Positions 5,507 to 44,810 of a stretch of DNA of 44,810 nucleotides are shown here, in pieces (the first letter of the stretch is position 1; every line of letters starts with the position of its first letter). The position numbers were made by a program, and so were the translations under genes. The stretch spans positions 1 through 44,810 of the forward strand of contig CAIXIX010000301.1 in assembly GCA_903919615.1 (NCBI GenBank), read 5' to 3'. The notes beneath the pieces were generated by a model. It saw nothing but the letters and a program-made list of their open reading frames with translations, was not told where the DNA came from and did no database searches. The stretch comes from an uncultured Chthonomonas sp. Lineage in GTDB: Bacteria; Armatimonadota; Chthonomonadetes; Chthonomonadales; Chthonomonadaceae.

Positions 5507-5563
5507 GAAGTTGTCCTTTGGGAGTTGTAATGACTTACTTAGAACGATGACGTGCACCCGATG

Positions 5564-24629: not shown

Positions 24630-26414
24630 ATGGTAATGGCACGCAAGAGTCTTGGCGACTATATGGTCGAAAAGGGATACGCTTCGTCGATCGAGATCGA
24701 GGAAGCGCGCAAGGCGCAGGCGACGACAAAAGGCGACCTTGCAAAGATCCTTGTTGATCTGGGACTCAATCCTAAGCACGTTTATGAGGCCAAAGCTCAG
24801 GAGATGGGGGTTCCCTTTGTAGACCTGACCGTCTATAAACCCGATGCCAGCGCAATCAACCTTGTTCCGCAGCATGTGGCCAAAAGGCATAATGTTCTGC
24901 CGGTTAAGAAGGATGGCAACATCCTGTACGTTGCCATGGCCGATCCTAACAACATTACCGCCTCAGATGACCTCCGACTCGTCTCCAGGTGTTCAGTTCG
25001 CGGTGTTCTTGCCTCTCCCGATGAGATTGAGCAGGCCATTGGCAGGCTTTATGGCGGCACAACCGTCGAGGGTGTTCCGGGTGTAGCGCCAGCCAAAGGC
25101 GGAATGAACCCGATGAAGGGTGGGGATCTCGTCGATTCCGATGCCCAATCTGTTATGAAAGAGGCGATGGCCCAGTACGCATCGCGTGGCGAGGCTGCTT
25201 CAGCCGAAGATGATGCAGAGGACGGCATAAAGGCCGCAGATGACGCGCCAATTGTGCGATTGGCCAACACGATTATTCAGCAGGCAATTAAAGAGCGCGC
25301 TTCTGATATTCATGTCGAACCGGATAAACGCGGAGTTCGGGTGCGGTACCGGATTGATGGTGTTCTTCACGAAACCATGATGATGCCGAACTATATCAAA
25401 ATGCCTCTTACAGCACGTTACAAGATTATGGCGGAGATGAATATCGCTGAACGGCGAGTCCCGCAGGACGGACGCATTGGAATTCGGTACGATGCTAAGG
25501 ATTACGATCTGCGAGTCTCTTGTCTCCCGAATCTGCATGGCGAGAAGATCGTTATGCGAATTCTCGACAAGAGCAGCGTTATGATCGGTTTGAATAAGCT
25601 TGGCTTTACCGACGACATGCGGCTGCAGCTCGAGGAGCTGTCCAATCAGCCGAACGGAATGCTTCTATCGACAGGACCTACTGGATCAGGAAAAACCACC
25701 ACTCAGTATTCACTCCTCAACAAATTGAACAGCGTTGAAACGAACATTCTAACTATCGAGGATCCTTGCGAGTATCAGCTGAGCGGCATTACGCAGGTGC
25801 AGGTAAACAAGAAGGCCGGTCTTAGCTTCTCAACCGCGCTTCGATGCTTCCTTCGACAGGATCCTGACATCATCATGGTTGGAGAGATGCGCGATCTTGA
25901 GACGGCTGAAATCGCGATTGAATCTGCACTTACGGGCCACCTTGTTCTCTCCACGCTGCACACTAATGATGCGCCCTCCGCGACGATCCGACTTATCGAT
26001 ATGGGAATTGAACCCTTCCTTATCGCCGCGACTGTTCAGGGAATTCTTGCACAGCGTCTCGGACGAAAAATCTGCAGCAACTGCAAAGAGGCTTACGAGG
26101 TGCCGGCCACAGATCTTCACCGATTTGGCTTCGTGCCCGACTCAGCGAATCAGATGGTTCAATTGTGGCGTGGTGTCGGTTGCGAGGCGTGCAGGCACAC
26201 CGGTTACAAGGGCCGCGTCGGCTTTTATGAACTGATGTGCATGAATGCAGAGCTTGCCGAAATGGTCGTGAGGCGATCGCCGCTAACTGAGCTGAAGGCT
26301 GCGGCGAAGGCAGCAGGTATGCGTGAACTGAGAGAGGACGGACTGGTTAAGGTTCTCGCTGGCATGACGACTCCTGAAGAGGTTATGCGCGTCGTCTTTA
26401 CCGCTGGGTTCTAG
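24630..26414 (+). CDS. pilB: type IV pilus extension ATPase PilB
   Basis: A 594-residue hexameric secretion-type ATPase that powers pilus/pseudopilus polymerisation. The N-terminal MshEN/T2SSE_N domain is at about 5-150, followed by a ~60-residue Gly/Met/Ala/Asp-rich linker (KGGMNPMKGGDL, EDDAEDGIKAADD). In the ATPase domain: DIHVEP, Walker A GPTGSGKTTT (349-358), the Asp-box region, Walker B DPDIIMVGEMRD (from 411), and the His-box HLVLSTLHTND. The zinc tetracysteine motif is Cys482/485 and Cys518/521 (CSNC, CEAC). AGGG-type Shine-Dalgarno upstream of the ATG. First gene of the pil operon. Confidence 0.96.
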   Translation: MVMARKSLGDYMVEKGYASSIEIEEARKAQATTKGDLAKILVDLGLNPKHVYEAKAQEMGVPFVDLTVYKPDASAINLVPQHVAKRHNVLPVKKDGNILYVAMADPNNITASDDLRLVSRCSVRGVLASPDEIEQAIGRLYGGTTVEGVPGVAPAKGGMNPMKGGDLVDSDAQSVMKEAMAQYASRGEAASAEDDAEDGIKAADDAPIVRLANTIIQQAIKERASDIHVEPDKRGVRVRYRIDGVLHETMMMPNYIKMPLTARYKIMAEMNIAERRVPQDGRIGIRYDAKDYDLRVSCLPNLHGEKIVMRILDKSSVMIGLNKLGFTDDMRLQLEELSNQPNGMLLSTGPTGSGKTTTQYSLLNKLNSVETNILTIEDPCEYQLSGITQVQVNKKAGLSFSTALRCFLRQDPDIIMVGEMRDLETAEIAIESALTGHLVLSTLHTNDAPSATIRLIDMGIEPFLIAATVQGILAQRLGRKICSNCKEAYEVPATDLHRFGFVPDSANQMVQLWRGVGCEACRHTGYKGRVGFYELMCMNAELAEMVVRRSPLTELKAAAKAAGMRELREDGLVKVLAGMTTPEEVMRVVFTAGF

Positions 26415-26439
26415 TCTCCAACTCGATCCTTGATTGTTT

Positions 26440-26477
26440 GCTTCCTGCCTTACCAAATCCATGGTATGGCAGGAAGC
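26440..26477 (+). other. long hairpin between pilB and pilT
   Basis: GCTTCCTGCCTTACCA (26440-26455) and its complement (26462-26477) pair with one mismatch around a 6-nt loop. It is followed by TGGTCCAAATAATCC, with no U-tract. A 3' stabiliser of pilB mRNA, or a processing site setting the PilB:PilT ratio, is plausible. A terminator is less likely. Confidence 0.55.
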
Positions 26478-26551
26478 TGGTCCAAATAATCCTGTTTCCG
26501 TCGTTTCAATAAGTGTTTCAACTGAGGCCCGTAAACGGGGAGAAAGTATAG

Positions 26552-27835
26552 ATGTCCAACAACCAGTTCCCGAATCAGCCTGGCGTGCCACCGGTACCCG
26601 GGATGAACCCAGGAGCGCAGCCCTACAACCCGCTCGCACCACAGGTTCCCACCGCATATAACCCGTTGGCTCCTGGTCAAGGCGGGGTGACCCAGCAGGT
26701 GCCATCTGCCGCAACGAGACCTGCGTCAGTTGACGATGCTCATATTGATGACTTGCTTCGCGCAATGGTCGACAAAGGCTCTTCGGACCTTCATATTGCT
26801 GTAGGCATTCCTCCCATTATTCGTGTCGATGGTGCGCTTGTGCCGATGCCATGGGAAAAGATGTCTCCACAGCACACGCAGAGACTCATTTACGACATTT
26901 TAACAGATGATCAGATCCAGAGGTTTGAAACCGATTTAGAGCTCGACTTCTCGTATCAGCTCGCACGCATTGCCCGCTTCCGCGTTAACGTATTCCGCGA
27001 TAAGGGTAACTGCGCAATGGCCTTCAGGCAGATTCCTCAAAAGATCCCAACTCTGCAGCAGCTTGGTCTGCCTCCTGTGCTCGAGGAGTTGACAAAACTT
27101 CCCCGCGGTCTGGTTCTTGTTACCGGGCCAACAGGTTCGGGTAAATCGACGACGCTTGCCGCGATGATTAATCGCATCAACTCTGAAGAGAGCAAGCACA
27201 TCATTACCATCGAAGACCCTATCGAATACCTGCATAACCATAAGTTCAGTGTTATCAATCAACGTGAAGTTGGCCAGGATACACTCGAATTCAAGAACGC
27301 TCTGCGCGCCTCTCTTCGCGAAGATCCGGATGTAATTCTCGTTGGTGAAATGCGAGACCTTGAAACCATGCAGATGGCAGTCTCTGCCGCTGAAACGGGT
27401 CACCTTGTCTTCGCCACACTTCACACCAACTCTGCGGCCACATCTGTTGAACGTATCGTTGACTCTTTCCCTGGCGGCCAGCAGGAACAGGTGCGACTGC
27501 AGCTATCCAACAACCTGCAGGCAATTCTTTGCCAGCAACTAATTCCCCGAGCAAACCAGCCCGGCCGCGTCTGCTGCCTGGAGATCATGCGCGCCTCCCC
27601 TGCAATTCGAAACCTGATTCGAGAAGCTAAAGCCCACCAGATCACCTCGATGATTCAGACAAGCGCCAGCCTGGGAATGACCACTATGGATCAGAGCCTC
27701 CGGGACCTGTACGTACGTGGTACGATCTCGTTCGAAGAGGCGATGACTCGAGCCCAGAACCCGTCGGAGCTTGAGAAGATGATTAAGACTGCGACCATGC
27801 CCCAGCCAGGGCAGCCCGGATACCAACGCCAGTAG
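26552..27835 (+). CDS. pilT: twitching motility retraction ATPase PilT
   Basis: A 427-residue ATPase that depolymerises pili. The first ~58 residues are a Pro/Asn/Gln-rich extension with YNPLAP twice (25-30, 36-41), not part of the usual ~350-residue PilT. The core has DDLLRAMVDKGSSDLHI, RFRVNVFRDKG, Walker A GPTGSGKST (192-200), DPIEYLH, Walker B DPDVILVGEMRD, GHLVFATLHTNSA, FPGGQQEQVRLQLS and the PilT signature AIRNLIREAKAHQI. GGAG about 10 nt upstream of the ATG. It sits between pilB and pilC. Confidence 0.96.
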   Translation: MSNNQFPNQPGVPPVPGMNPGAQPYNPLAPQVPTAYNPLAPGQGGVTQQVPSAATRPASVDDAHIDDLLRAMVDKGSSDLHIAVGIPPIIRVDGALVPMPWEKMSPQHTQRLIYDILTDDQIQRFETDLELDFSYQLARIARFRVNVFRDKGNCAMAFRQIPQKIPTLQQLGLPPVLEELTKLPRGLVLVTGPTGSGKSTTLAAMINRINSEESKHIITIEDPIEYLHNHKFSVINQREVGQDTLEFKNALRASLREDPDVILVGEMRDLETMQMAVSAAETGHLVFATLHTNSAATSVERIVDSFPGGQQEQVRLQLSNNLQAILCQQLIPRANQPGRVCCLEIMRASPAIRNLIREAKAHQITSMIQTSASLGMTTMDQSLRDLYVRGTISFEEAMTRAQNPSELEKMIKTATMPQPGQPGYQRQ

Positions 27836-27861
27836 ACGTGAGGGAACTGTAGGAGACTGCT

Positions 27862-29118
27862 ATGCCCGTTTACCAGTACACGGTTAGAGATACCACCGGT
27901 GCGGTACGCACCGGAACTTCGGAGGCAGAGAACCAGGATATCCTGAAAAAGCGACTTCAGGAACAGGGCTTTGCCGTAAGCGACCTGAAACAGACTGCCG
28001 CAGGCAAGAAAAAGAATGCTGGCGGCGGGTTTGGCCGCGTCAAATTGAAGGACCTCTCTATTTTTTGCCGCCAGTTCTCAACAATGATTGACGCTGGCGT
28101 TTCGCTCGTTCGCGCACTTGATGTGCTCGGCGAGCAGACTCAGAACCCAAAACTGAAGCGAATCCTGCGAGAGATCCAGGTGGAGGTCGAAAGCGGCCAG
28201 ACACTTTCCAAGTCGATGCAGAAGTATCCAAAAGTCTTCAGCAACATGTTCATCGGACTTATCCGCGCAGGAGAGGTCGGTGGAGTTCTTGAAGAATCGC
28301 TGCAGCGCCTGTCGCACTTCCTTGAGAAGGATATGGAGCTTCGCCGTAAGGTTAAGGCGGCGCTTACCTATCCTGTCATCGTCGTTATCGTCGCGATCCT
28401 GATCGTTCTTGGCCTCTGTACATTCATCGTCCCGAAGTTCGTTGAACTTTTCCACGACCTTGGTGTTAAAGAGCTGCCAATGATGACGCAGTGGCTCGTA
28501 GACTTCAGCGACTTCTTGAAAACGAAGTGGTTTATTGGTCTGGGCATCATTGCTGCGATCTGGTTCAGCATCAAGTATGCAGGTACCACTAAAATCGGAC
28601 GGCGAGTTATCGATCGCCTGAAGCTGAAGGTTCCTGTTTTTGGCAAGCTGGGCCACAAGATCTGTCTCGCCAAATTCTCGCGAACGCTTTCTACGCTGCT
28701 CGTCTCTGGCGTACCTATTTTGCAGGCGATGGAAACCGTTGCTGGCACCGTTGGTAATGAGATCATTGCAGAAGCGATCATGAACGCACGCGCTCGAATT
28801 CGTGAAGGAGACAGGATCAACGAGCCTCTCGAGAAGAGCAAGATGTTCCCGCCAATGGTGGTGCATATGATCTCGATTGGCGAAGAGTCTGGAGCTCTTG
28901 ATCAGATGCTCAGCAAGGTCGCGGAGTTCTACGAAGGTGAAGTGGAATCTGCACTTCAGTCGTTGACCTCAGCTATCGAACCTGTTATGATCGTTTTCCT
29001 TGGCGTATGCGTTGGGTTTATCGTCATAGCGATGTTTGCCCCGCTGTTGTCGGTTATCTCAAACCTCTCAGGTGGTCAGGACGACGATGCCAAGTCCGGC
29101 GGAGCCACAAAGGAGTAG
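27862..29118 (+). CDS. pilC: type IV pilus inner-membrane platform protein PilC
   Basis: A 418-residue polytopic protein that couples the motor ATPases to the pilus. N-terminal cytoplasmic region VYQYTVRDTTGAVRTGTSEAEN, then two T2SSF domains (about 70-195 and 270-395), each with the FCRQFSTMIDAGVSLVRALDVL or FSRTLSTLLVSGVPILQAMETV pattern, and hydrophobic helices near 170-190 (VIVVIVAILIVLGLCTFIVP), 220-240 and 375-400 (IVFLGVCVGFIVIAMFAPLL). GGAG lies 6 nt before the ATG, and pilT ends 26 nt upstream. A terminator-like hairpin follows. Confidence 0.96.
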   Translation: MPVYQYTVRDTTGAVRTGTSEAENQDILKKRLQEQGFAVSDLKQTAAGKKKNAGGGFGRVKLKDLSIFCRQFSTMIDAGVSLVRALDVLGEQTQNPKLKRILREIQVEVESGQTLSKSMQKYPKVFSNMFIGLIRAGEVGGVLEESLQRLSHFLEKDMELRRKVKAALTYPVIVVIVAILIVLGLCTFIVPKFVELFHDLGVKELPMMTQWLVDFSDFLKTKWFIGLGIIAAIWFSIKYAGTTKIGRRVIDRLKLKVPVFGKLGHKICLAKFSRTLSTLLVSGVPILQAMETVAGTVGNEIIAEAIMNARARIREGDRINEPLEKSKMFPPMVVHMISIGEESGALDQMLSKVAEFYEGEVESALQSLTSAIEPVMIVFLGVCVGFIVIAMFAPLLSVISNLSGGQDDDAKSGGATKE

Positions 29119-29185: not shown

Positions 29186-30265
29186 ATGCATGATCGAAAC
29201 GGTATGACACGAGAAGTATGGTTCGGCTGCATTGTCACATTTCTGCTCGGAATATCTGTCGGCAGTTTCTTAAACGTAGTCATCTGGAGATTGCCACGGA
29301 ACGGCTCGCTCGTTTCGCCGCAATGGTCCTATTGCCCGAACTGCAGCCACCGCCTGATGGGGGGAGACCTGATTCCCCTGTTAAGCTATCTGATCTGTGG
29401 CCGTAAATGCCGGTATTGCAAGAAGCCAATTTCGTCCCGTTACTTCTGGGTCGAACTGCTAACGGGCGTGCTATTTGTGGTACTGTATCTCCGGTTCCAG
29501 CCGGATATGGCGAATGTTATCGCGTTAACTATGTTTGGCGCACTGCTTGTGCCAATTTACAGTATCGATATGGAGCTGTTTCTCATTCCGAACCAGCTCA
29601 ACCTGCTTGTGTTTGCGATCGCCGTAGGCAGAGATGTCTACGGCATTGCCACGCATGAACCTGGGCACGCGCTGTACCACGGCATTTTGCCGACTTCGAT
29701 ACTTGGCGCGCTTACTGGGATTGCAATTTTTGGTTCCGTTCGCGTTGTCGGATGGATCTGGAAACGCGTTGAGGCGATGGGGCTCGGCGACGTCCTTTTG
29801 GCTCGCGCGATGGGAGCCATGCTGGTGTCCATCGTGCCGCGTGGTGCAAACTCGCTGCGGCTGGTACCTATCTGGGTCGCACTGAGCATAGGTTCAGGGG
29901 CCATTGTAGGGCCGGCGATGATCATGCTGCGACGAAGAGCCCGTAAAGCAGGGAAATCAAGTCCGGCATCCGAAACCATTACGGATGTAGAAGACGAGGA
30001 TCCGTCGACTCTGGGCAGAGAACTTCGTGACATTCTCTATGTAGTCTGGCTAGAAGATGCTGTGGAGTATGTTCGTTACCTGTTTCAGCGCAGGGAGATC
30101 AACACTCCCGGCCTCGCTGAAGAGGACAACTGGAAACCAGCGGATACCGCGATTCCATTCGGTCCTTTTATGGTTATAGGGTTTTTGGCAGCGATCTTCG
30201 TGGGGGAGTGGCTAACGTCGATGTACCTCACCTATGCGCTTCCAGTTCATAGTGCAGCACCGTAG
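29186..30265 (+). CDS. pilD: prepilin peptidase / N-methyltransferase PilD (A24 family)
   Basis: A 359-residue polytopic aspartic protease that cleaves and N-methylates prepilins. The N-terminal domain has GSFLNVVIWRLP and the zinc cysteines Cys50/53 and Cys75/78 (CPNC, CRYC). The catalytic aspartates are Asp128 in SIDMELFLIPNQL and Asp202 in GLGDVLLARAMGA. The C-terminus is ~90 residues longer than typical: a basic/acidic cytoplasmic stretch (RRRARKAGKSS, DVEDEDPS), then an extra hydrophobic helix (FMVIGFLAAIFVGEWL). The start is ATG 29186 (ATG 29204 also possible). Neither has a strong Shine-Dalgarno. Its substrates are probably the four prepilin-type proteins downstream. Confidence 0.94.
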   Translation: MHDRNGMTREVWFGCIVTFLLGISVGSFLNVVIWRLPRNGSLVSPQWSYCPNCSHRLMGGDLIPLLSYLICGRKCRYCKKPISSRYFWVELLTGVLFVVLYLRFQPDMANVIALTMFGALLVPIYSIDMELFLIPNQLNLLVFAIAVGRDVYGIATHEPGHALYHGILPTSILGALTGIAIFGSVRVVGWIWKRVEAMGLGDVLLARAMGAMLVSIVPRGANSLRLVPIWVALSIGSGAIVGPAMIMLRRRARKAGKSSPASETITDVEDEDPSTLGRELRDILYVVWLEDAVEYVRYLFQRREINTPGLAEEDNWKPADTAIPFGPFMVIGFLAAIFVGEWLTSMYLTYALPVHSAAP

Positions 30266-30383
30266 TTGCCATCGCAAAATTGTTACGGCCTCGCGCATTG
30301 CGCGGAACATTGACTTTATGGCATTAGTCAAACAACCGGTCGTGTGGATTGATGGCCCTGGTGGCCAGAGTGGAAGGACGGAG

Positions 30384-32405: not shown

Positions 32406-34514
32406 ATGGAAATGATGAGAGCATTGAAAACGAACAGGTATCACCAGGTTCTTAACGCAAACCGCAGCAGCTATGGCACAATCGGCCGCAGATCCCAATC
32501 GGGCTTTTCGCTAGTTGAGATCATGGTGGTTCTTGTAGTTCTGCTGATCGGTATCCTGGCTGTGGTGCGCATCTACCCCGGCGGGTTCTTGAGCATCGCA
32601 CATACTGCAGAAATGACCGCTGCTGATGCACTCAACAGGCAGCAGCTTGATGCGCTGAAGCGCGCCGCGAATCAGCCAGAAGCGATCTACGCCACCGATG
32701 CCTCAGGCAATGTAGTCAATACCATCCTGCCCACAGACCTTTCTGATCTGTCGGTCGGCAACCCAATCCTTTCAGGCGGCGATCCCTGGTACTACTCCAA
32801 CGTTAACAGGTTCCGCAATATCATGGGAGAAACGTTCAGAGTACCCGCGCCAACGAGTAACACAACCGTTAACGGCAATGTGGCCATCTATCCTTTGCAA
32901 TATGGGCCGGTCGAGAATGTCTTAACGGCAACGAGTGACAAGATCCTCGTATACGGAGTTGGGCTCCAGAGAACGGCTCAGAGTTCTCTAATCACAACCG
33001 GCAACCCCACTGGAACCGCGGTTCTCCGCAGTGAGTCGGAGTACGCAATCGATTACGATCACCTCTTGATCGCGTTTCAACCCAGACTCATTGATCCATC
33101 GCGCGGATCGAATAACTTCAGACAGTTTACGGTCAGCTACGATTACTACTACCTTAACGGGGTTACCGGAGCTGTCAACGTTCAGTTTCAGCCGAATGCC
33201 TATGACCCTTCGACGGCAACAGTTACAACGGTCATAACGGTTCCCGACGTTAGCCCGACGCCGGCTGGCGGCCTTCCCGCCCCGGTATGGCAGCCAATCT
33301 TCACCGGATTATACACTCCAGACCCGGTTGCCGCAGCAGGATACACGGGAATGACAATCCCGACCACTCCTGCGCTCTACCTCGGCCCCTCCGGAGCCTT
33401 TCCGCCTGCGGCAAATTCAAGCTTCGCTTTTGGAATCGTGCACGACAGTGAAGAGGTCTCCCGCAAGTTCAGGTTAGCGTTGCCGGGTACCTCTGTGGAA
33501 GCTGGCGGCGTACCGGTCTGGTCTAATGGCGATCCTTACGAGTACGCCTGGTATTCTCGACAAAACGCGGGCAATACTGCAAATGTCGGAATCCTGATCT
33601 TTAACCCCGGCGCGCACAATCAGAGCCAGACAGTTGGAGGAGTCGCTCAGCCGCTTACAGCGCGGGTCGACTATAAGATCTACGATAATCACATCTTACG
33701 TGACGATCGAACGGTACCGACCGCCGCGCCGTACATCGTTTCGCTGTCTGTACCGTTTCTTAAGCTCAATGGCGATATTCTAGATAATCTGAATCCGCTC
33801 AATAACTTCAGCACCGCCCTGAATCCTTATAACGGGATCAGCCGCGACCCTGCCAACACAACCCCCGATGTGATCATCTACAACATCGCAACCGGTGTTA
33901 ACGTCGGTACATGGACGAATGTCGCCTCCAACCCTGGAACAGGCGTGCTTACACAGGACAATACGGATGTGGTCCCTGTCGATCAACGAACGGGCGTACT
34001 CACCTTAAATGCAGGAATGGTTGCCAGCATGAACCTGCAGGGCGCATCCCTGAGAATTCTTTACCAGGCGCAGCACGACTGGGGCATGCAAGTTCTAAAG
34101 GCCTCGGCGCACTACCGTGAGGCCACAACGCCTACTAATGTAGACTTTCGACATTACTATATCGGAGATGGAACGACCGGAGGCGTATCTCGCATCTACT
34201 TCGCTCCATGCGACGCGGGCAAGACCGTTGAAATCGGCGAATTCTATGCCGTTGGAAACTCTCAGCCATTCCGAAACCAGTCCTATCAGATCACTTCGGA
34301 TTCGGCCCAGTTCGACTCCAGCGTATCGCCAGCCTTGCCGTATATCGATGTTTCGAGTACGACTGGCGGCGCGGGATTCTCCGCTGCGCAAACAGGCAGA
34401 AGAGTTAGTAACGTCCAGGGGCTATCTGTGAAATCGCGCGTTATCTGGGAAGATACCAAGCGCTGGCGTCACTCGGATAACGATTCCGTTCTCATACAGG
34501 CGCCCTCTCAATAG
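32406..34514 (+). CDS. large PilV-like pseudopilin
   Basis: A 702-residue protein with a type III signal: a long 33-residue leader ending QSG, cleavage before Phe34, Glu38 at +5 (FSLVEIMVVLVVLLIGILAV), then RIYPGGF. The N-terminal core resembles PilV/GspI-type minor pilins, but the exported domain is ~630 residues of beta-rich, Asn/Thr/Pro/Gly-rich sequence (PVWQPIFTGLYTPDPV, YDYYYLNGVTGAVNVQF) with no recognised enzyme motif. GAGGG precedes the ATG. It may be a tip or adhesive subunit of the pilus. Family of the C-terminal part not recognised. Confidence 0.78.
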   Translation: MEMMRALKTNRYHQVLNANRSSYGTIGRRSQSGFSLVEIMVVLVVLLIGILAVVRIYPGGFLSIAHTAEMTAADALNRQQLDALKRAANQPEAIYATDASGNVVNTILPTDLSDLSVGNPILSGGDPWYYSNVNRFRNIMGETFRVPAPTSNTTVNGNVAIYPLQYGPVENVLTATSDKILVYGVGLQRTAQSSLITTGNPTGTAVLRSESEYAIDYDHLLIAFQPRLIDPSRGSNNFRQFTVSYDYYYLNGVTGAVNVQFQPNAYDPSTATVTTVITVPDVSPTPAGGLPAPVWQPIFTGLYTPDPVAAAGYTGMTIPTTPALYLGPSGAFPPAANSSFAFGIVHDSEEVSRKFRLALPGTSVEAGGVPVWSNGDPYEYAWYSRQNAGNTANVGILIFNPGAHNQSQTVGGVAQPLTARVDYKIYDNHILRDDRTVPTAAPYIVSLSVPFLKLNGDILDNLNPLNNFSTALNPYNGISRDPANTTPDVIIYNIATGVNVGTWTNVASNPGTGVLTQDNTDVVPVDQRTGVLTLNAGMVASMNLQGASLRILYQAQHDWGMQVLKASAHYREATTPTNVDFRHYYIGDGTTGGVSRIYFAPCDAGKTVEIGEFYAVGNSQPFRNQSYQITSDSAQFDSSVSPALPYIDVSSTTGGAGFSAAQTGRRVSNVQGLSVKSRVIWEDTKRWRHSDNDSVLIQAPSQ

Positions 34515-34604
34515 AATGGCTCCCAGATCTGACCGTCACCAGTTTATTTAACTATCCCTGGCGCAGCGCCACTTTGTGGCTGCACCTCGGAGGCGTAGAC
34601 AGGC

Positions 34605-36896
34605 ATGAATGATATGCTAAACAATCGGGCTGAATTCGCTAACGCCAGTAACGGCGCTGCAGATCGTAGCATACGCAATCGATCGAGAACTGAAAATAGC
34701 CAGCTTCACCAGAGTGGATTTACACTCGTGGAACTGCTCGTTGTAATTGCGCTGACATCGATCCTGTTCACGATCATCTTCAGGCCACTTGTCAGCAGCC
34801 TTCAGCTTTCGAATCGCGCTGCTACACAAACAGAGGGTCAGGCAGCCGCGCGAGATCTTACAGCGCAGTTGAATTCTATTCTGTCCAATGCTGAGTACGT
34901 TCAGGACCAGACGCCCGCGACCTCGACCGTTAACCTCTGGTTAACGGATGCGAATGGCGCGACGTTTGTAGTTCCTTCGTATTTCACTATGATTGAGTAC
35001 GTTCCACCGGCTCATCAGCTCGATCAATATGCCTATTCTCCGGGGTCTGGTGTGCCGATCGATCCAACTACAGGTCTTCCGTCCTATGGAGCGACCGGAT
35101 TCACGCCCGGACAATCTGGACTTGCCTTTCCACTCGTTAATGGCCTCGTGCTCGGCCGTATCTTTTACGGCTTGACAGATAACAAATCCGTCAATGGCCT
35201 ATACGGCCAAAACGGTACGCCAGCGAAGCCGTACTTTAACTTCTATGAGTGGGCAACCTCAGATTCAGGTTTACGAACCGGCAACTACAGCATAAAGAAC
35301 CATAACACCTATACACTGTACAAAGCGGAAGTGTCGACTTCAATTTCGGACCCTAATAACGTTGGCAGCTTCATTCCGAACCTGATGTTGTTCCATACCG
35401 GGCCAGATAGTTCAAGCCAGACCGACATGACGGATGGACCGATCCTCATCCACGACCCCAACTTCTTTTACGATAACTCGCTGGCGGGTGGCAATGCACC
35501 CAACGCGGGAGATCCGAAGTTCTGGGCAGTCTCGGGATGGAAAGATCTGAATGGCGACGGCAAGGTCGAGATCTGGGAGAACTGGAGAGCGGTGTCTAGT
35601 TCGCTGATCCGTAACGACAAGGTGGACCTGTTGTCGTATCAACGAGACACGATTACCAATATTCCAACCTACGACGGCGCGAACCATCCCATTTACAACG
35701 TTTTGGCGACCTTCAAGCCCGCCGCCGTACAGAATGACCCGGGTGTAGGAACCAGTGTGGACAATGCAGGCAACGAAGCGCCGAATGCGACGCCGGCGAA
35801 CTTTACCACGCAGTACGACCATTGGAATAGCAACTATCGTGTCTTTATCTACCGAGCGACGGGATCTGGTGGAGACCCGACTCAGACCAATCCGCTGAAC
35901 TATTACGAAGGCATCATCGATCCGTCGACGGGCCTTCAGAAGATCGTACACGTAACAGGGCTTGCCCCTGGTGCTCCCGCGCCGGATCCCACAACTCTAC
36001 CGGACGTTAGCGGGCAGTTAACCAACGGGATCTTTACGACAAAACCTGCTGGTGACTCGATATTTTCGTTCAACGTTAGCATGAACCGTGGACTGATCGG
36101 TTTCGGATATCCATCGACAACCGTCGTGCACCTGCCAGCGTCGCCCTATTCTCCTCTGCCGCAGAGATATAGCCCGGACGATGTAAACAATGCAGATGCC
36201 GGTTTCGGAGCGCTAGGTGTCGGTTCAAAACGGCATCTCAGCTTAAGCGCTGGACTCTCGACGGGTACCTGGGGTGGGGGACAGCTCAACCCAGCCGGAA
36301 TCTATTCGCCCCTTAACCCGGCAAGTGGCATCGCGCCAACGGTGTCGATTGTGCCAGGGACCGAACAGGTCTTTGGACCAGATCAACGCCCAGGCATCCA
36401 TTATGGACACCGAATACAGTACACACGCGTTGCATCTGCTGCCGGATTTACGGGTCCGAACCAGTACTGGATTAATTACACCAATAACTCGAACATTCCC
36501 GGCGGGATAACGGCATCGACGCCTGCCAGCCTGCTGGCCGGCTACATCCAGTTCGACAGCCAGATGGACTACGCGCAGCAGTTTAATGCTGGAACGCTAA
36601 GCGTGAATGCCGGAACCGATGTGAACACAGGGCAGCCTGCCGCGGGAACGCATATGCTGCCGATATTCAAATTTGACCCGAGCCTGGGCGCAATCAATAG
36701 TTCGATGCCAGCAGACCCGATTGAGGTCTACTATAACTTCCAGATGAATCAGCCGTCGGATGTCGTTCGCGTGGACTACATGTCCCGAACCATGATGATC
36801 TTCTCGCTGGAGATGCGGCTATACGATGTAGGTTCGGGCAAGCCGCAGGTAACTCGCCTGACAGACAAGATCAACGTTGGGAACCTGCAGCACTAA
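34605..36896 (+). CDS. large PilW-like pseudopilin with EF-hand-like loop
   Basis: A 763-residue protein. Its 38-residue leader ends HQSG, cleavage before Phe39, Glu43 at +5 (FTLVELLVVIALTSILFTIIF), then LVSSLQLSNRAATQTEGQAAARDL, a pattern typical of PilW/GspJ. The extended exported part is beta-rich. At residues 314-325 DLNGDGKVEIWE fits the 12-residue EF-hand calcium loop (D1, N3, D5, G6, E12). The C-terminus (VRVDYMSRTMMIFSLEMRLYD) again resembles pilin-type beta strands. GGAGG lies 11 nt upstream of the ATG. Sits between the PilV-like and PilX-like genes. Confidence 0.78.
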   Translation: MNDMLNNRAEFANASNGAADRSIRNRSRTENSQLHQSGFTLVELLVVIALTSILFTIIFRPLVSSLQLSNRAATQTEGQAAARDLTAQLNSILSNAEYVQDQTPATSTVNLWLTDANGATFVVPSYFTMIEYVPPAHQLDQYAYSPGSGVPIDPTTGLPSYGATGFTPGQSGLAFPLVNGLVLGRIFYGLTDNKSVNGLYGQNGTPAKPYFNFYEWATSDSGLRTGNYSIKNHNTYTLYKAEVSTSISDPNNVGSFIPNLMLFHTGPDSSSQTDMTDGPILIHDPNFFYDNSLAGGNAPNAGDPKFWAVSGWKDLNGDGKVEIWENWRAVSSSLIRNDKVDLLSYQRDTITNIPTYDGANHPIYNVLATFKPAAVQNDPGVGTSVDNAGNEAPNATPANFTTQYDHWNSNYRVFIYRATGSGGDPTQTNPLNYYEGIIDPSTGLQKIVHVTGLAPGAPAPDPTTLPDVSGQLTNGIFTTKPAGDSIFSFNVSMNRGLIGFGYPSTTVVHLPASPYSPLPQRYSPDDVNNADAGFGALGVGSKRHLSLSAGLSTGTWGGGQLNPAGIYSPLNPASGIAPTVSIVPGTEQVFGPDQRPGIHYGHRIQYTRVASAAGFTGPNQYWINYTNNSNIPGGITASTPASLLAGYIQFDSQMDYAQQFNAGTLSVNAGTDVNTGQPAAGTHMLPIFKFDPSLGAINSSMPADPIEVYYNFQMNQPSDVVRVDYMSRTMMIFSLEMRLYDVGSGKPQVTRLTDKINVGNLQH

Positions 36897-36954
36897 GATG
36901 ACATCTAACAACTGTACAACAAACTTTGTTTTGACGCAGGGAGCCACAGACACG

Positions 36955-39900
36955 ATGTCTCACCTAGCAACCCGGCCGATAACTCGCACGCGCCAACGGG
37001 CGCAGCGCGGTCAGATGCTTGTAGTAGCGATTGCGATCCTGTTCGTTTTGCTGGTTATTGGCGGCATCTTTGTCGCCTCGATCGGCCGTAACTTGATTGC
37101 GGCGGGGCGAAGCCGCGACGATCAGAGTGCACAGGCTTTCGCAGAAGCTGGCATTAAGTTTTGCAACGACAATTTAAACACAAGCCCCGAAGGCGCAGAC
37201 TGGCGACCGGTACCTAATGCACCACTTGGCCCTAATTCTGGAGTGACCGACCCAGATTACAGGTGGCTCTCCGTTGGGTTCACACGACTCTTCTACCAGG
37301 GCGGACGAGCGCTGGTGCGCGTTGTGTACGATCCTCATGCAGACGATCCGAAGAGCCAGTACATTCGTATCGAATCGGTTGGCCGCGCCGGTGACCTTAA
37401 TCAGGGCCTGGACCCAACGGTCTTTGTAGCTAACGGCAATGCTATCAGGCAGCGGCGTGAACTGATTGCCTACAAGCAGATTGGGCTTACCGATTACCTT
37501 CGTTTTTTCACTAACCATGATCATCGCAACGTCGCCAACTTCCTTGGCATCCCAGCGATGGAGAATGGCGGCGGTTCCGGTTCTGGCTACAACGATGTGT
37601 CGATGGTGCTTGGCGATACCTATCTCGCAGGCAATCCGGGAGGCGTAGACAACGCGGGGAATATCTATTTTGGCGCGCCGATACGATCCAACTCAACGCT
37701 TACGCTTGGCGGCGAACTGCATATTTATGAGAGCCAGCGTGGACTTACGCCGATATCCCCTGAGGCCGTGCTTACCAATGCAGACATTACGCTTGCGCCT
37801 AACCAGGATATCGACGGGAATAACCTTATCGACGGTAACGACCATCAAGTTTTTATCAACCAGCCGCTGAACGCGACGCCAACAACTTCGGGCACACCTA
37901 ACTATGTGCTGCCCACGGCAGCCCAAAACTTCTACTCGTTCTTGGGATTGATTCGTGATGGCAGCCCCCTGCCAGACTCCGCAGGTGTATCTAGAGCGGT
38001 ACCAACGCTCGATGCGCCTGTTATGGATGGTTACGTATCCGGTACCGGCACAATGCGTTACCGCGAGCTAACACGTAATTCAGGATACTGGAATGGAACC
38101 GTCAACACAGGTTTCTACGGATGGGGCACCGGGGTATATGTGGATAACACGTCCGACCAGCAGCCGGAAACCCAGAACGCGAATGGCGTCTACTCTTTGA
38201 GGGCCGACTGGCTAAATCCGCAGGCCTCCTTTGGACTGTCCTACTGGAGCGGTCCCTTCTACCGTCCGCCTGGCGTTCTAATTGAACTTTTGGGCAACCA
38301 CATCCGCATGACGCGCTCCGACGGAAAGACCTTCCGCAAGCCGGATGGCACGCCGATAACCGCGACTGCCGGCAATGTTGTGGATATACCTTTGAGCAAC
38401 TCACAGCGCTTTCCACAACAATTCGTATTTGCAGATGGCACCTCGGTTACTCTCCCGGCTCTTCCTCAGGACGGCGATGCTACAGGCTCACCGACGAGGA
38501 ATCCAGATCCTACTGCCTTCCCGGTTGATAAGAACTCGTATGGCGTCAATCTGGTGATTATGGCCGAGGGTAACGTCCGCATTAAGGGCGTCTACGGCGC
38601 AGTGACAGATGCCACCAATCCTAGTGGGGACCATCTGGGTAGAGTTCACCTTACTATCGTCAGCGGTGGCACGGCCTACATCGATGGCAACATCCTGAAG
38701 GGCGACGGATATTGGGACGGCACGCGAGTTAACTACGAGAAGGCGTCTACTTGCTCTATTCTGGCGAAGGACTATGTAACGGTTAACACTACGATGTTCA
38801 TGGCGGCAAGCCAAACGCCGAACTGGTCTTCTGTTTCTGGTTCCGATCTCAAGTACATCAGCCTGCCGACCGATCTCGCATCTTACGATGCTACCGTTGC
38901 CTTTGGGTTTAATCCTTATCTGTACACAACAGGTGGAACGCAAAGCCCACTATACCTGTTTGTTCGCCACGCCTCGATGACCGACAACTCCGGGGGCGGC
39001 TCAACTGGCCTCAACCTGGCGATTAACCCGGGCCTTGGCGTGTACTCTCAGTACCTTTTTGATGGCATAAACGTACAGGAATCGGCAATGCCGTTTGGCT
39101 TCCCAAAAGATACCTACCTGCTCGGGCAGAAGTACCAGAGCCTTGCCTTCGTACCCGAAAGCAGCCAGGTTGTGCCGAACTTTGAGCAGCGGGTCTTCCC
39201 ACTGATGGGGACACCCGGTGCACCAGGTTCTTTTAGCGGCAGCTTTTCGAGCACCGCCTTGGATCCTAGCCTGAATCCTTATGGCACAGACAATGTTTTC
39301 CATTTCAACAAGGACACCACGGCTGCAGCGATCGTCGCTTCGCTAGGTTATACAGGCTTCAGCGAAACTGAGGACTACCTCTTCAGCGGCGCCATGGTAG
39401 CGCCGTTGGATATTCGAATAGAAGCGATGCTCTATGCGCAGGAGCGCTCGTTCTTCGTAATCCCGGGTTACTCGTTCAACCAGAATCCGAACGATACGCG
39501 AACAAACTGGCTTTTGACCCACAAACGCCCAATCTTCAATGTGGCGGAAGCGCAAGCCGGCGGCTCCGTGACCAAGGATCCGTTCCCGTTCTACAACGAA
39601 CCGATGGACGTAAAGATCACGATCTTCGGGTCCGTAGCTGAAAACTACAGTGCGTCGCCTGGCGATCAGGCTGCATGGATATCCAAGTGGGGTTACATCC
39701 CCACGAAGTATGGTTCGTCCACGGGACTTGTCATTCCTGACCAGCACATGGTGCTTCAGACACCGAAAGAAGCAAGCGATGGCATCGTTCGTGGCCTGGA
39801 GTTCAAGTACGACCCGACCTTCCCGTTACCCTACGATGCAGCCTACAAGACAGACTTGCTCGGCTTCACGAATGCGGCGACGCAGGCCCGGCAGATGCGC

Positions 39901-40035
39901 GCAGTGCGTACAAAGTACGTTCCTGCTGCAGGCTCCGCGCCTGCCGTGGTGCAGACACTGCCGTCGATACCACGACTGCCAGTCTGTCCGGGTATGCTCT
40001 ACTTTGGCCCGCCGGATAGCCCGGTAGTACCATAA
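36955..40035 (+). CDS. large PilX-like membrane-anchored pilus assembly protein
   Basis: A 1026-residue protein beginning with a basic stretch, one hydrophobic helix (QMLVVAIAILFVLLVIGGIFVASI) and then QSAQAFAEAGIKF, the pattern of PilX/GspK N-termini, which lack a perfect prepilin cleavage motif (here QRGQM, without the +5 glutamate). The exported part is long and beta-rich: IYFGAPIRSNSTLTLGGELH, an EF-hand-like DIDGNNLIDGND (residues 285-296), VHLTIVSGGTAYIDGNIL, and a Pro-rich C-terminus. ATG 36955 is chosen for AGGGAG ~11 nt upstream. ATG 36898, 1 nt after the preceding stop, is an alternative. Probably part of the minor-pilin complex. Confidence 0.74.
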   Translation: MSHLATRPITRTRQRAQRGQMLVVAIAILFVLLVIGGIFVASIGRNLIAAGRSRDDQSAQAFAEAGIKFCNDNLNTSPEGADWRPVPNAPLGPNSGVTDPDYRWLSVGFTRLFYQGGRALVRVVYDPHADDPKSQYIRIESVGRAGDLNQGLDPTVFVANGNAIRQRRELIAYKQIGLTDYLRFFTNHDHRNVANFLGIPAMENGGGSGSGYNDVSMVLGDTYLAGNPGGVDNAGNIYFGAPIRSNSTLTLGGELHIYESQRGLTPISPEAVLTNADITLAPNQDIDGNNLIDGNDHQVFINQPLNATPTTSGTPNYVLPTAAQNFYSFLGLIRDGSPLPDSAGVSRAVPTLDAPVMDGYVSGTGTMRYRELTRNSGYWNGTVNTGFYGWGTGVYVDNTSDQQPETQNANGVYSLRADWLNPQASFGLSYWSGPFYRPPGVLIELLGNHIRMTRSDGKTFRKPDGTPITATAGNVVDIPLSNSQRFPQQFVFADGTSVTLPALPQDGDATGSPTRNPDPTAFPVDKNSYGVNLVIMAEGNVRIKGVYGAVTDATNPSGDHLGRVHLTIVSGGTAYIDGNILKGDGYWDGTRVNYEKASTCSILAKDYVTVNTTMFMAASQTPNWSSVSGSDLKYISLPTDLASYDATVAFGFNPYLYTTGGTQSPLYLFVRHASMTDNSGGGSTGLNLAINPGLGVYSQYLFDGINVQESAMPFGFPKDTYLLGQKYQSLAFVPESSQVVPNFEQRVFPLMGTPGAPGSFSGSFSSTALDPSLNPYGTDNVFHFNKDTTAAAIVASLGYTGFSETEDYLFSGAMVAPLDIRIEAMLYAQERSFFVIPGYSFNQNPNDTRTNWLLTHKRPIFNVAEAQAGGSVTKDPFPFYNEPMDVKITIFGSVAENYSASPGDQAAWISKWGYIPTKYGSSTGLVIPDQHMVLQTPKEASDGIVRGLEFKYDPTFPLPYDAAYKTDLLGFTNAATQARQMRAVRTKYVPAAGSAPAVVQTLPSIPRLPVCPGMLYFGPPDSPVVP

Positions 40036-40189: not shown

Positions 40190-43100
40190 ATGACGAGAAG
40201 CTTCGCCCGAAAGCGGGTAAGCCTTGTATATATTGCGTTTGCGCTGCTCGGTGCACTACTCGCCGACCAACGCACACCGGCCGTCGCCGACACGCACAGT
40301 TACGCCAGCACGAAGAGACAGATACGCGCGTGCGTTCTCGTTTCCAATGCAGCGTCACTGGTGTCTGGCGGAGTCGTAATTCCCGAAAACGCAGTGCCTT
40401 ACACTTTCTACTTGCTGGATAGGCGCACTGATCTGAAGCCGGCTGGCTGGGAGTTCGTTAATCCTCTTGCGTCGTCGACCGTTACTGGTTCGATACGGCA
40501 GCGTTGGCTGGCGCGCGATACGTCTAGCATCGATGCCACATTGGCGAATCCAGCATTTGCGCTTGGGGCTCCTCTTACAAAGAACCTCGGCGCCTACTGG
40601 GAAGTAAACCTTGATCTGATAAACGCATCGGATCTACAGCAGTTCGATGTGATCCTGATGGCATACCACACGGCTTCTACGGGCTTTACCCCAACGGAGC
40701 GCGAGGCGCTAAGAAAGTACGTTGATGGCGGCGGGACGATCTGGCTTGAAGACGAAGGCGGCTTTGACATTAAATCTGGTGGAAACCACACCGTAAACCA
40801 GTTCATTATCGACACCGCATTTAACGGCGCCGTCGTGGCGCCCTCTACGCCGCCAACACTCGGCTCATTGCATCACCCTATCGTTAACTTCCCATACCCG
40901 ATTACAGCTCAAACCGTCGCTGCGCTTGGTGCGGCCGGGCAGGGTACGCACCATGTTGCACTCGATCCAATTTCAGGACCCGTGAACCCAAGAGTCGTTG
41001 TTCCCGTAATCTGGAGTGGTCTCGGAACTACGAATACGCCGCTGGTACTCGCCGGTGATTACGGTGCAGGGCACATCGTAATCAGCTCTGCAGGCATTGC
41101 AACTGGTATTAACAGTTACGCTGGCGGCAGTTCGGTTGCAAACGAGTATGGCAACTCTGGCGCCGTTAGCGGTGAGAATATTCTTGGCGTACAAAACATA
41201 GACGCAGAATTCGCCTACAACCTGATTGCATGGACCAGCACCGTATCCACCGGACAGTTTAATGCCCGCCGCACGGGCGGCTCGATGGAGAACATCGGCA
41301 ATGGCCTCGGTGTGAGATGGAGCACGATTCCGAATAATGCTCCTACGACATCGCACGACTCGGGCGTTGCAATATTTAAGAACTGCGCGTTCTATGTAGA
41401 CGGCAACAACGTTCTTCGCTGTTACGACCTGGCTCCATCTGAAGATCTGGACAACGACTTTAATCCCGACGACGGTTTCCCAGACTATATTAACGGTGCT
41501 CCATACGATGAGGTTTGGGAGCAGCCGCTTGACGGATTATCCGGATCCGGCTTTTCATCGTCAACGCGGTTTGGGCCCCCAACCCTCTTTAGCGTAAATC
41601 ACAACGGAACCGTTGTTGACGAAATTGCCGTACAGGGCAGCAACGGTGTAACCGCAGTATTCAATGCGTTCACTTTTAGTGGAGGCGTTCTTGCGGCGGC
41701 TCCTGCCTTTTTATATACTGTAGTTGGCGCAGGTGGCAATAATGCTGGTGACTACGCTCCCGGTCTGGTAAATCAGCATGGCGGTCAGCCTTTCTCGGCT
41801 CCTTCCGCAACTGTCAGTGAAGGCGTTCTCTTCTCGCTTGTCTTCGATAATTCGGCTGGCGCCATCAACACCGGGAACGACGCCTGGCGAATAAGCGCGA
41901 CAGATGTGCTTACGCAGAATAATGTGTTCGGTGATAACAAATACGGCACAGCGCCAAGTCCAATTAACTCGGCAGGCGCAACGAATGGAATGCCGTATCC
42001 GATTGGTTCACCCGCGATCGGCTACATGAAGGATGTAACGTCCGGCGCTCTCGACAAAGTCATCCAGGTTCCGACGCTCCCGGATCAGAACATTACGCTC
42101 TCTGGCGGGGCTGGAGAGGTGTACTCTCTCCTGTATTCCGCGAAAAATGATACGCTGATCGATGTGACTACCACGACGCAATATATTCCGACCACGGGTG
42201 GCTTCGTAGCGCCGACACAGGGACAGGCTTTCCGCGCGATGATCCGCCGCGGCAATCTTCCCTGGTTTGCTCCCTCACTGCCGTTTAATGGTAACCGAGG
42301 CATGCTTCCTGTTTGCCACGTAACACACAACGGTGTCGCGACGGACTACGCGTACAGTACGTCCGGCGGAGTGAATACCTTCAGTGTCGCTATTCTAAAC
42401 GATGCAACTGCTGGTGGCGGCAACCATCAAATATGGATTTTACCGAATCCAGCACTTCTTCCTGGCGATACAATAACGGCGGACTACACAATCGACTGGT
42501 CTGGCCAATCTATTCCAGGATATAACGGTGGACCGACAATTAGCCCATCGACTCGCGATCTCGCTAGCGCTTTTTACACCTTTAAGATCGTGAATCCCGC
42601 GGGAACCGCTCCAGGAACCCCGTCGCTCGACTTTGTTGGTGGAATCGCATTCACCCCGGATGATATGGTGCTCGCAAATATGGGCGACGCCCCATTTGCA
42701 GATCGCATCTACGCGATTAACAACCATTTCCAGGTATCGAATGGCACTGTCTCTGGTTCAAGCCGAGCAGAAGGTCCTGCCGTTCGTTGGATGTTCTATC
42801 CTAACGGGCCTGTCCCGGATGAGGGACCCTATACGGGTGCCCAGGGTCTAACAGCGAGGCTAATCAATACAGACACATTTGGCGGCCTGTACAATCCCAG
42901 CGGCGCCGTTATCGCAACGGACCTCGAAACTATTGGCGCTCCCGCTTACAGCAATGGCGTTGCTTACCAGGTTGGATGGGGCCACATGCACTATCCCACA
43001 GGTCTAGCCGTTAACGAGTGGGATGCAGCGTTTATCCTGGCTTATAAGGCGAACCCGAACATGACGTTCGTGCTGACGAACAACGACGGCACGGTCGTGG

Positions 43101-44810
43101 ACATGAGCCAGTACACTTCGACGGACAATAACGGCAATATCGTTAACAACAATCGCCTCCAGATCAAACAGGTCAACATCTATAACCTGGCGCCCGGTCA
43201 GACGCCGCAACCGACGATCACGCTAACCGAAAATGCTCAATTCGTCTGTGACAGAGCCACCAGCACGATCACGATTTTCGATTGTCGACAGGGCAATACG
43301 GGTGATTCACTCAATCTTGCGATGCCGTTCCAGGTATCTATAAACACCGGTGCAGGAACCACGAACATTGGCGGCTTGCAGGTGAATCCGGCTGGATATG
43401 GACTTCTCGATAATCTCTTATGGTGGATGATTGTTCCGATGCAGGAGAGCATTACAGGCGTACTGAACCCCAATGCACCACCGATCGCACAGGTCGTTCC
43501 CGATGTTCTAGATGTTCAGCCAGCGAGCAGCCCAACTGTAATAGGCAACTCTCTCTACTATGGAACCCAACATGGGCATATCGCCTCGATTGACCTTTCC
43601 AATATGCCGCAGGACGGTTCACAAGCAACGCTGTTTGCGCAAAACCTGTTGGCTCAACCGCGAATTCATACGACGCCTGCCCTGTGGAACACGTCGGCCA
43701 ATAACGCGATAGACACGCCAATTGTCAACCCACCGGTTGGCACTACCGATGTCGTTGTGGCGTCATCGCCAAACGGCCTGACCGCGATGGACAACCAGCT
43801 GACCATGATCGCTGATAACAACCGGTTGGTTGAAGTCAATCACTCGGTTCAAGCGACATGGTCGGTGGATGCCACACAGACGCAGACCCTCGTCGGCGGC
43901 CCATTGCTGGGCAACGGAAACATTGCCTCTGCCAAGATCTCGCTTTCGCGGCCGACAAAGGTACAAAACGACAGCCTCAATACGTTTGTAGTGGCTGATA
44001 GCGGAAACAACCGTGTTATGGAAGTTAACCGGGGCGGCGTCGTTGCCTGGGAACTGCAAAAATTCAATGATCGAATGAACTTCCTTCGACCTGGTGATCC
44101 CGTTACGCTTAATTCACCGACCGACGTGCAGTTCTTTACTCAGGTTGGGAATGGGCCGATCACGTACACAAGTCCTAATACGGGCGTAACCTACTCGTAC
44201 AACGGCTATTTCTACGCATATCACTACATTATTGCGGATAGCGGCAACTTCAGAATGCTTGAAGTAGTCGACGTCGTCGATATCAACGGTAACCCGATTG
44301 TGCTATCGAGCAGCGTTGGCAACGTTACCATGCAGCGGCTTCTTGTCTATGTCTCACAGACGGCAGCGGAACAAAGTAAGGCGTTGCGATATCGAACTGT
44401 ACAGCAGTTCTACTATCCGGGCGGACTTCAATACCTGGCGACGACGGTTGATAACACGGCTATTGGCGGCCAAGACCCGGGCAGTCCAATTCCGCTCACA
44501 GGTCTGCCATCCGTAGATGCTGGCGGCGGATCCTTGCTTGTATATGCTCGCAACGGACCAAAGGCAGGAAATGTTGTCGCAAAAATCACATCGCTGTTCG
44601 ACCCGAAACGCGGGACGCACACTCCTATTGCGGGTCCAACCTTCTTCCAGGTTTATACTGCGATAGATGGAACCCGACATTCGCTTCTATGCGACGCGAA
44701 CGGCTGCTACGACCTGCTGCAGTTGGATCTTACAACCCCGGTGGGACTGCAGGACAGCGAAGCCGTGATATCTTGGGCACTCTACTCGTCCGACTACCTT
44801 TACATGACGG
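40190..44810 (+). CDS. very large secreted beta-propeller protein in the pilY1 position (partial)
   Basis: An open frame of 1540 codons that continues beyond the window. AAGG lies 9 nt before the ATG. Residues 1-33 form a signal peptide (SLVYIAFALLGALLA, cleavage near AVA). Residues about 45-330 resemble a ThuA/glutamine-amidotransferase-like fold (FDVILMAYHTAS, ALRKYVDGGGTIWLEDEGG, GAGHIVISSAGIATG). At 419-432 DLDNDFNPDDGFPD fits a thrombospondin-3-like calcium site. Residues ~1100 onward contain PQQ/NHL-type blades: YYGTQHGHIASIDL, then TMIADNNRLVEVN (1205), VVADSGNNRVMEVN (1267), IIADSGNFRMLEV (1347). Order after PilV/W/X-like genes matches pilY1, but no PilY1 family homology is claimed. 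Confidence 0.75.
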   Translation, partial: MTRSFARKRVSLVYIAFALLGALLADQRTPAVADTHSYASTKRQIRACVLVSNAASLVSGGVVIPENAVPYTFYLLDRRTDLKPAGWEFVNPLASSTVTGSIRQRWLARDTSSIDATLANPAFALGAPLTKNLGAYWEVNLDLINASDLQQFDVILMAYHTASTGFTPTEREALRKYVDGGGTIWLEDEGGFDIKSGGNHTVNQFIIDTAFNGAVVAPSTPPTLGSLHHPIVNFPYPITAQTVAALGAAGQGTHHVALDPISGPVNPRVVVPVIWSGLGTTNTPLVLAGDYGAGHIVISSAGIATGINSYAGGSSVANEYGNSGAVSGENILGVQNIDAEFAYNLIAWTSTVSTGQFNARRTGGSMENIGNGLGVRWSTIPNNAPTTSHDSGVAIFKNCAFYVDGNNVLRCYDLAPSEDLDNDFNPDDGFPDYINGAPYDEVWEQPLDGLSGSGFSSSTRFGPPTLFSVNHNGTVVDEIAVQGSNGVTAVFNAFTFSGGVLAAAPAFLYTVVGAGGNNAGDYAPGLVNQHGGQPFSAPSATVSEGVLFSLVFDNSAGAINTGNDAWRISATDVLTQNNVFGDNKYGTAPSPINSAGATNGMPYPIGSPAIGYMKDVTSGALDKVIQVPTLPDQNITLSGGAGEVYSLLYSAKNDTLIDVTTTTQYIPTTGGFVAPTQGQAFRAMIRRGNLPWFAPSLPFNGNRGMLPVCHVTHNGVATDYAYSTSGGVNTFSVAILNDATAGGGNHQIWILPNPALLPGDTITADYTIDWSGQSIPGYNGGPTISPSTRDLASAFYTFKIVNPAGTAPGTPSLDFVGGIAFTPDDMVLANMGDAPFADRIYAINNHFQVSNGTVSGSSRAEGPAVRWMFYPNGPVPDEGPYTGAQGLTARLINTDTFGGLYNPSGAVIATDLETIGAPAYSNGVAYQVGWGHMHYPTGLAVNEWDAAFILAYKANPNMTFVLTNNDGTVVDMSQYTSTDNNGNIVNNNRLQIKQVNIYNLAPGQTPQPTITLTENAQFVCDRATSTITIFDCRQGNTGDSLNLAMPFQVSINTGAGTTNIGGLQVNPAGYGLLDNLLWWMIVPMQESITGVLNPNAPPIAQVVPDVLDVQPASSPTVIGNSLYYGTQHGHIASIDLSNMPQDGSQATLFAQNLLAQPRIHTTPALWNTSANNAIDTPIVNPPVGTTDVVVASSPNGLTAMDNQLTMIADNNRLVEVNHSVQATWSVDATQTQTLVGGPLLGNGNIASAKISLSRPTKVQNDSLNTFVVADSGNNRVMEVNRGGVVAWELQKFNDRMNFLRPGDPVTLNSPTDVQFFTQVGNGPITYTSPNTGVTYSYNGYFYAYHYIIADSGNFRMLEVVDVVDINGNPIVLSSSVGNVTMQRLLVYVSQTAAEQSKALRYRTVQQFYYPGGLQYLATTVDNTAIGGQDPGSPIPLTGLPSVDAGGGSLLVYARNGPKAGNVVAKITSLFDPKRGTHTPIAGPTFFQVYTAIDGTRHSLLCDANGCYDLLQLDLTTPVGLQDSEAVISWALYSSDYLYMT

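Follow-up and report, generated by a model that had tools for sequence, protein, structure and literature searches.

PilY1/PilC proteins, which have been called predominantly proteobacterial (PMC4471445), are encoded in clusters of the type fimU-pilV-pilW-pilX-pilY1 (PMC7541494, PMC13190605). The minor-pilin complex that primes pilus assembly in M. xanthus has PilY1 at its tip, seated on PilX (PMC7541494), and in models the extreme C-terminus of PilY1 contributes an additional strand to PilX (PMC11046646, PMC13190605). The PQQ-like propeller of the protein includes an EF-hand-like calcium loop (PMC3123361), which is important for piliation in Pseudomonas (PMC3123361, PMC4471445). PilY1 has been described mainly from Proteobacteria. 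The Fimbriimonas genome paper names PilB, C, D, Q, M and T and many pilins, and no tip protein (PMC4072686).

Here we analyzed a 44,810-nucleotide stretch of DNA from an uncultured Chthonomonas sp. (the window), in which a giant gene occupies the place that pilY1 has in Proteobacteria. By analogy, we propose, with a probability of roughly 0.6, that Armatimonadota have in its product their equivalent of PilY1, secreted, distinct from the pilins and seated on the type IV minor-pilin complex. It belongs to a real, phylum-wide and apparently undescribed family. In the open-licence literature searched, we found no description of it and no paper joining Armatimonadetes with PilY1, or DUF4159 with a pilus.

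The gene and the pilus operon upstream

The open reading frame is preceded by AGAAGGTG a few bases upstream of its ATG and is still open after 1540 codons. The window is the entire contig C301 of a 7.4 Mb assembly in 614 contigs, so that the end of the gene is cut off; from a comparison with the relative in L071, we estimate that about 120-160 C-terminal residues are missing. By eye and hydropathy, residues 1-33 form a typical Sec signal peptide. With this signal peptide, the open frame at the contig end and full-length relatives of 1300-1860 aa, the original prediction of a large secreted protein of more than 1540 residues was borne out. The features of the locus are collected in Table 1.

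Table 1. Features of the candidate tip-protein locus; positions refer to the window unless a locus or contig is named
Feature	Position	Strand	Remarks
PilB	24630-26414	+	Pfam T2SSE, MshEN; motor part of the type IV pilus operon
PilT retraction ATPase	26552-27835	+	NCBIfam TIGR01420, 505 bits, cut-off 319
PilC	27862-29118	+	Pfam T2SSF; motor part of the operon (block 24630..29118)
PilD prepilin peptidase	29186..30265	+	Pfam A24_N_bact, E 5e-30
Two pilins	30234-31148 (DUF1559 start), 31238-32245	+	Pfam N_methyl, SBP_bac_10; TIGR02532
PilV-like large minor pilin, 702 aa	32406..34514	+	N_methyl; weak TIGR02523 PilV, E 2e-4
PilW-like large minor pilin, 763 aa	34605..36896	+	N_methyl; position; weak GspH
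PilX-like protein, ~1026 aa	36955..40035	+	RGQMLVVA N-terminus and C-terminal LPxLPV[SC]Px tail, both conserved in relatives
Candidate pilus-tip protein	40190..44809	+	1540 aa visible, truncated at contig end
Type I signal peptide	40190..40288	+	Cleavage after AVA, before D; by eye and hydropathy; hydrophobic core LVYIAFALLGALL
GATase/ThuA-like (DUF4159-like) domain	40307..41242	+	AlphaFold2 model; Foldseek 2gk3, prob 1.00
PQQ/BamB-type propeller, long insertions (predicted)	41243..43800, end approximate	+	8 blades in compact relative L120
EF-hand-like loop DLDNDFNPD, residues 419-427	41444..41470	+	Turn connecting strands in the first PQQ blade
NHL/YWTD-type propeller, end missing (predicted)	43801..44809	+	6 blades in L120; repeats at 43811, 43991, 44231
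Second giant gene, relatives	L075:14787-23345; L072:7802-15541; L071:14988-23702		
Second giant gene, window's own genome (G000)	C435:114-8075 (L160)		Start of contig C435

Upstream of the gene lie four N-methyl pilins and then the PilX-like protein. The latter keeps the G(-1) cleavage site and lacks Glu5, as do the N-termini of relatives and the PilX homologs of P. aeruginosa, N. gonorrhoeae and M. xanthus (PMC7541494). The window copy matched no Pfam or NCBIfam family; the PilX-like family is present in 250 of the 255 Armatimonadota genomes searched. The minor-pilin-like proteins encoded at 32406-40035 are large (700-1050 aa, several-fold above usual minor pilins), and they are large throughout the phylum. 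The PilX-like tail is highly conserved (LPP.P[RK]LPV[SC]P.L.YFGE). It was rejected as a marker of tip-protein genomes, as it is also recognizable in lineages lacking the candidate, in degenerate or even good versions. Elsewhere in the window, the minus strand encodes two small secreted proteins that resemble each other (QTINFGP...; 3048-3731 and 4832-5557) and are apparently paralogs.

Secretin(s) are present in the genome alongside PilB, PilC, PilD, the pilins and PilT, which completes the type IVa pilus set. The nature of this machine bears on the first alternative, in which the candidate is a surface or released protein exported like a type II secretion system (T2SS) substrate and acting outside the pilus, the operon then encoding secretion machinery for two giant cargo proteins of its own. 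Two giant secreted propeller proteins are indeed encoded consecutively, the second with Golvesin_C and sialidase-like repeats. Moreover, the GspI-J-K and PilV-W-X minor pilins are hardly separable by sequence, and systems of Armatimonadetes, among others, have been reassigned to T2SS (PMC6668835). However, the operon encodes a PilT-family retraction motor scoring far above its cut-off (Table 1), and a T2SS has no retraction ATPase, which argues for a type IVa pilus. The PilB score also exceeds that for GspE (638 vs 590 bits, both below cut-off), the order of pilX followed by a giant gene is that of type IVa pili with pilY1, and the candidate occurs almost as widely as the minor pilins. We therefore consider export as T2SS cargo unlikely.

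Predicted architecture and relation to PilY1

Modelling predicts that the signal peptide is followed by a non-catalytic amidotransferase-like domain, a PQQ/BamB-type propeller and an NHL/YWTD-type propeller. The AlphaFold2 model of residues 29-879 of the window protein (pLDDT 80, pTM 0.84) comprises an alpha/beta domain and a propeller, and the alpha/beta head matches the GATase-like structure 2gk3. For the compact relative L120, the whole propeller part was modelled (pLDDT 82, pTM 0.83) and gave two propellers. The first, with 8 blades, resembles Cake8 (Z 26.7, rmsd 2.0 over 313), YxaL (25.4) and BamB (about 22), and the second, with 6 blades, resembles LRP6 E1 (Z 23.1, rmsd 2.7 over 244). 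We infer that the window copy has the same blade numbers. Family matches were weak, with DUF4159 found in 18, NHL in 8 and PQQ_2 in 6 of 20 relatives, along with weak GIFT matches and, in some relatives, weak NCBIfam BamB matches; in the window copy, NHL scored 19.4 against a cut-off of 20. Together, the profile and structure matches confirm the ThuA-like N-terminal fold and the NHL/PQQ-like blades that had been read from the sequence. No full-length homology to an unrelated secreted enzyme was found.

The propeller motif IADSGN..R..EV had been reported three times; it occurs twice in exact form (VADSGNNRVMEV at residue 1268 and IADSGNFRMLEV at 1348), whereas the copy at 1208, ADNNRLVEV, is looser. 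The D, N and R columns of these NHL-type repeats are invariant in relatives. The calcium-type loop was also correctly recognized: its acidic pattern D-x-[DN]-x-[DN]-x3-[DE] is kept in 38 of 52 relatives and incomplete in 14, many of them from the window's own family, and the glycine that follows is invariant. At the other end, 69 of 81 complete relatives finish with P-x-[FYSCL]-[ASG]-x-[RQ] within the last 16 residues, against 0.4 expected, an excess that is partly by construction as the motif was derived from the same tails in which it was counted. Two enzymatic functions were considered and rejected. An active amidotransferase does not fit the head domain, in which no cysteine column is conserved among 52 sequences, and an active quinoprotein does not fit matches to quinoproteins that are at the level of the fold only.

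A second alternative is that the candidate is a true but highly diverged PilY1, sharing its ancestor, with an extended propeller, a second one added and a sequence to which PF05567 is blind. Its operon place is identical to that of pilY1, PilY1 too has an EF-hand-like loop in a PQQ-like propeller (PMC3123361), and what little aligned between the two proteins was a PQQ blade. Against this, PF05567 matched nothing in the window protein, in 20 relatives or in 255 Armatimonadota genomes, so that the PilY1 position in the phylum would otherwise be empty. In a control, the same profile found a PilY1 (1438 aa, 42 bits) in G308, out of 59 genomes searched in another phylum; the search thus works, at least at that divergence. 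This protein is encoded at L144:1161-5474, and its genome, of the same phylum as G260, was reached via a record titled Verrucomicrobia. Aligned with it by hhalign, both halves of the candidate gave probabilities below 4%, a weak test with one sequence on the PilY1 side, and the single stretch that aligned was a generic PQQ blade. The PilY1 structure 3HX6 was absent among the structure matches listed and from profile searches of PDB sequences, which is not proof. The best folds are of the 8-bladed BamB and 6-bladed YWTD types, and the head is GATase-like, not vWA. The sequence searches thus support that the candidate is not a member of the PilY1 (PF05567) family, and we regard a diverged PilY1 as rather improbable. 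The original prediction of a non-homologous replacement went further; although no PF05567 protein was found in 255 genomes, both proteins have PQQ-like blades, and non-homology is unproven.

Spread, gene order and a second giant gene

Relatives of the candidate were found in 50 of 61 genomes by BLAST and, by profile search, in 224 of 255 Armatimonadota genomes (a few with weak scores), or 175 of the 194 of good quality. The gene is mostly single-copy. Wherever both genes could be read (57 of 57 loci), it directly follows the PilX-like gene on the same strand, with a 4-base overlap in 11 loci. The predicted position after the PilV/W/X-like genes, as for pilY1, is therefore general, and linkage to the minor pilins extends across the phylum. 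When about 85,000 species were scanned with an alignment of relatives as the query (the single window protein returned no matches), the titles of the matching records were nearly all Armatimonadota, some just "bacterium", and included Chthonomonadales, Fimbriimonadales, Armatimonadaceae and Zipacnadia. A homolog outside the phylum was considered and discarded: a MAG fragment titled Verrucomicrobia (L141) matched in the NHL part alone, and its genome had no match to the first half.

A second giant gene, for a secreted product that reaches 3206 aa, lies directly downstream in 54 of the 56 loci whose flanks were long enough. Some of these products have PQQ-propeller and Golvesin_C parts, and sialidase-like repeats occur as well. 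In the window's own genome, this gene lies beyond the window, on another contig, as C301 ends before it. Among 255 genomes, both giant genes were found in 203, the first only in 21, the second only in 8 and neither in 23, counts obtained by matching the genome list of one gene against that of the other, with absence from a list read as a negative, and in which several mixed cases are fragmented assemblies. The two genes tend to occur together (odds ratio 28, Fisher p 2e-14, relatedness ignored), and the second giant protein is probably a partner of the candidate.

Several lineages do without the candidate. Families f7, f12, f21, f26, f33 and part of f45, as well as the small genome G138, have the whole or part of the PilV-PilW-PilX-like cluster and neither giant gene at the cluster position. 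We looked there for a replacement giant gene and, where tested, found PilM, ATP-sulfurylase or other unrelated genes next; the sole replacement candidates are a 1101-aa Big_5 protein (L152) and a PD40 propeller protein (L157). The loci of these lineages (L145-L159) carry a PilV-PilA-PilW-PilX cluster and neither giant gene; f7 has a longer PilX-like protein, of 1240-1340 aa, and the cluster of L148 is followed by PilM. In these lineages, the tip protein was either lost or has diverged past detection. As minor pilins are kept without it in several families, the candidate is not a universal priming factor, and any pili in the families that lack it do without. The retained minor pilins could also suggest that the candidate works in the envelope or at the cell surface independently of the pilus and has only the operon in common with it, but we find this highly improbable given the adjacency in 57 of 57 loci of many families, often with start/stop overlap, and the fact that lineages without the candidate mostly lack the second giant gene as well.

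Proposed role and comparison with known systems

Based on the PilY1 precedent, a pathway can be proposed for the candidate as a pilus-tip protein. It would cross the inner membrane via its Sec signal peptide and fold in the periplasm, aided by calcium bound in the first-propeller loop. It would then dock on the PilX-like minor pilin and so join the complex that starts pilus assembly, and the conserved last residues (P-x-[FY]-A-x-R) could be the docking strand, as modelled for PilY1. On the growing pilus it would pass the secretin and reach the tip; there, attachment might use the amidotransferase-like head and both propellers as binding surfaces. One point against a tip role is that two giant proteins, not one, come after the minor pilins. 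It is possible, and we suggest this only tentatively, that the pilus tip of the phylum is made of two giant propeller proteins of independent origin that replace PilY1. If so, the same minor-pilin platform acquired a tip adhesin and primer on two or more separate occasions.

From a biological perspective, conservation in nearly all Armatimonadota makes the candidate a single-gene handle on pilus capping. If its role is confirmed, the minor-pilin complex would be a platform of general use that can bear different tip proteins. It would also suggest a mode of surface attachment for a poorly cultured phylum of soil, lakes and hot springs.

Finally, parts of this system resemble several known families. 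Large pilin-like proteins are shared with the Verru_Chthon cassette of Verrucomicrobia (TIGR02596, 02599, 02600), and 2 of 29 PilX-like proteins match TIGR02600, weakly (best E 0.006). The N-terminal fold is that of DUF4159/ThuA/IFT52-GIFT amidotransferase-like domains, without a conserved catalytic cysteine. In the L120 model, the first propeller shares its fold with BamB/PQQ_2 (PF13360), YxaL and the designed Cake8 (Z 22-27), but in the Armatimonadota protein it has large insertions, a calcium-type loop and a pilus operon around it. The second shares its fold with NHL (PF01436) and YWTD (LRP6) propellers (Z 23), together with the ADxGNxRxxEV repeats, whereas the Armatimonadota protein is bacterial, secreted and fused to a PQQ-type propeller. 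The closest likeness is to PilY1/PilC of Proteobacteria and Myxococcota, whose gene also directly follows pilV-pilW-pilX and whose product also has a type I signal peptide, a large size, a propeller with a Dx[DN]xD-type loop and a distinct N-terminal head. However, the PilY1 head is a vWA or DUF4114 domain and the candidate head is GATase-like; PilY1 has one modified 7-bladed, C-terminal propeller (3HX6), whereas the candidate is predicted to have two, of 8 and 6 blades in the L120 model; and in Armatimonadota a second giant gene follows downstream.
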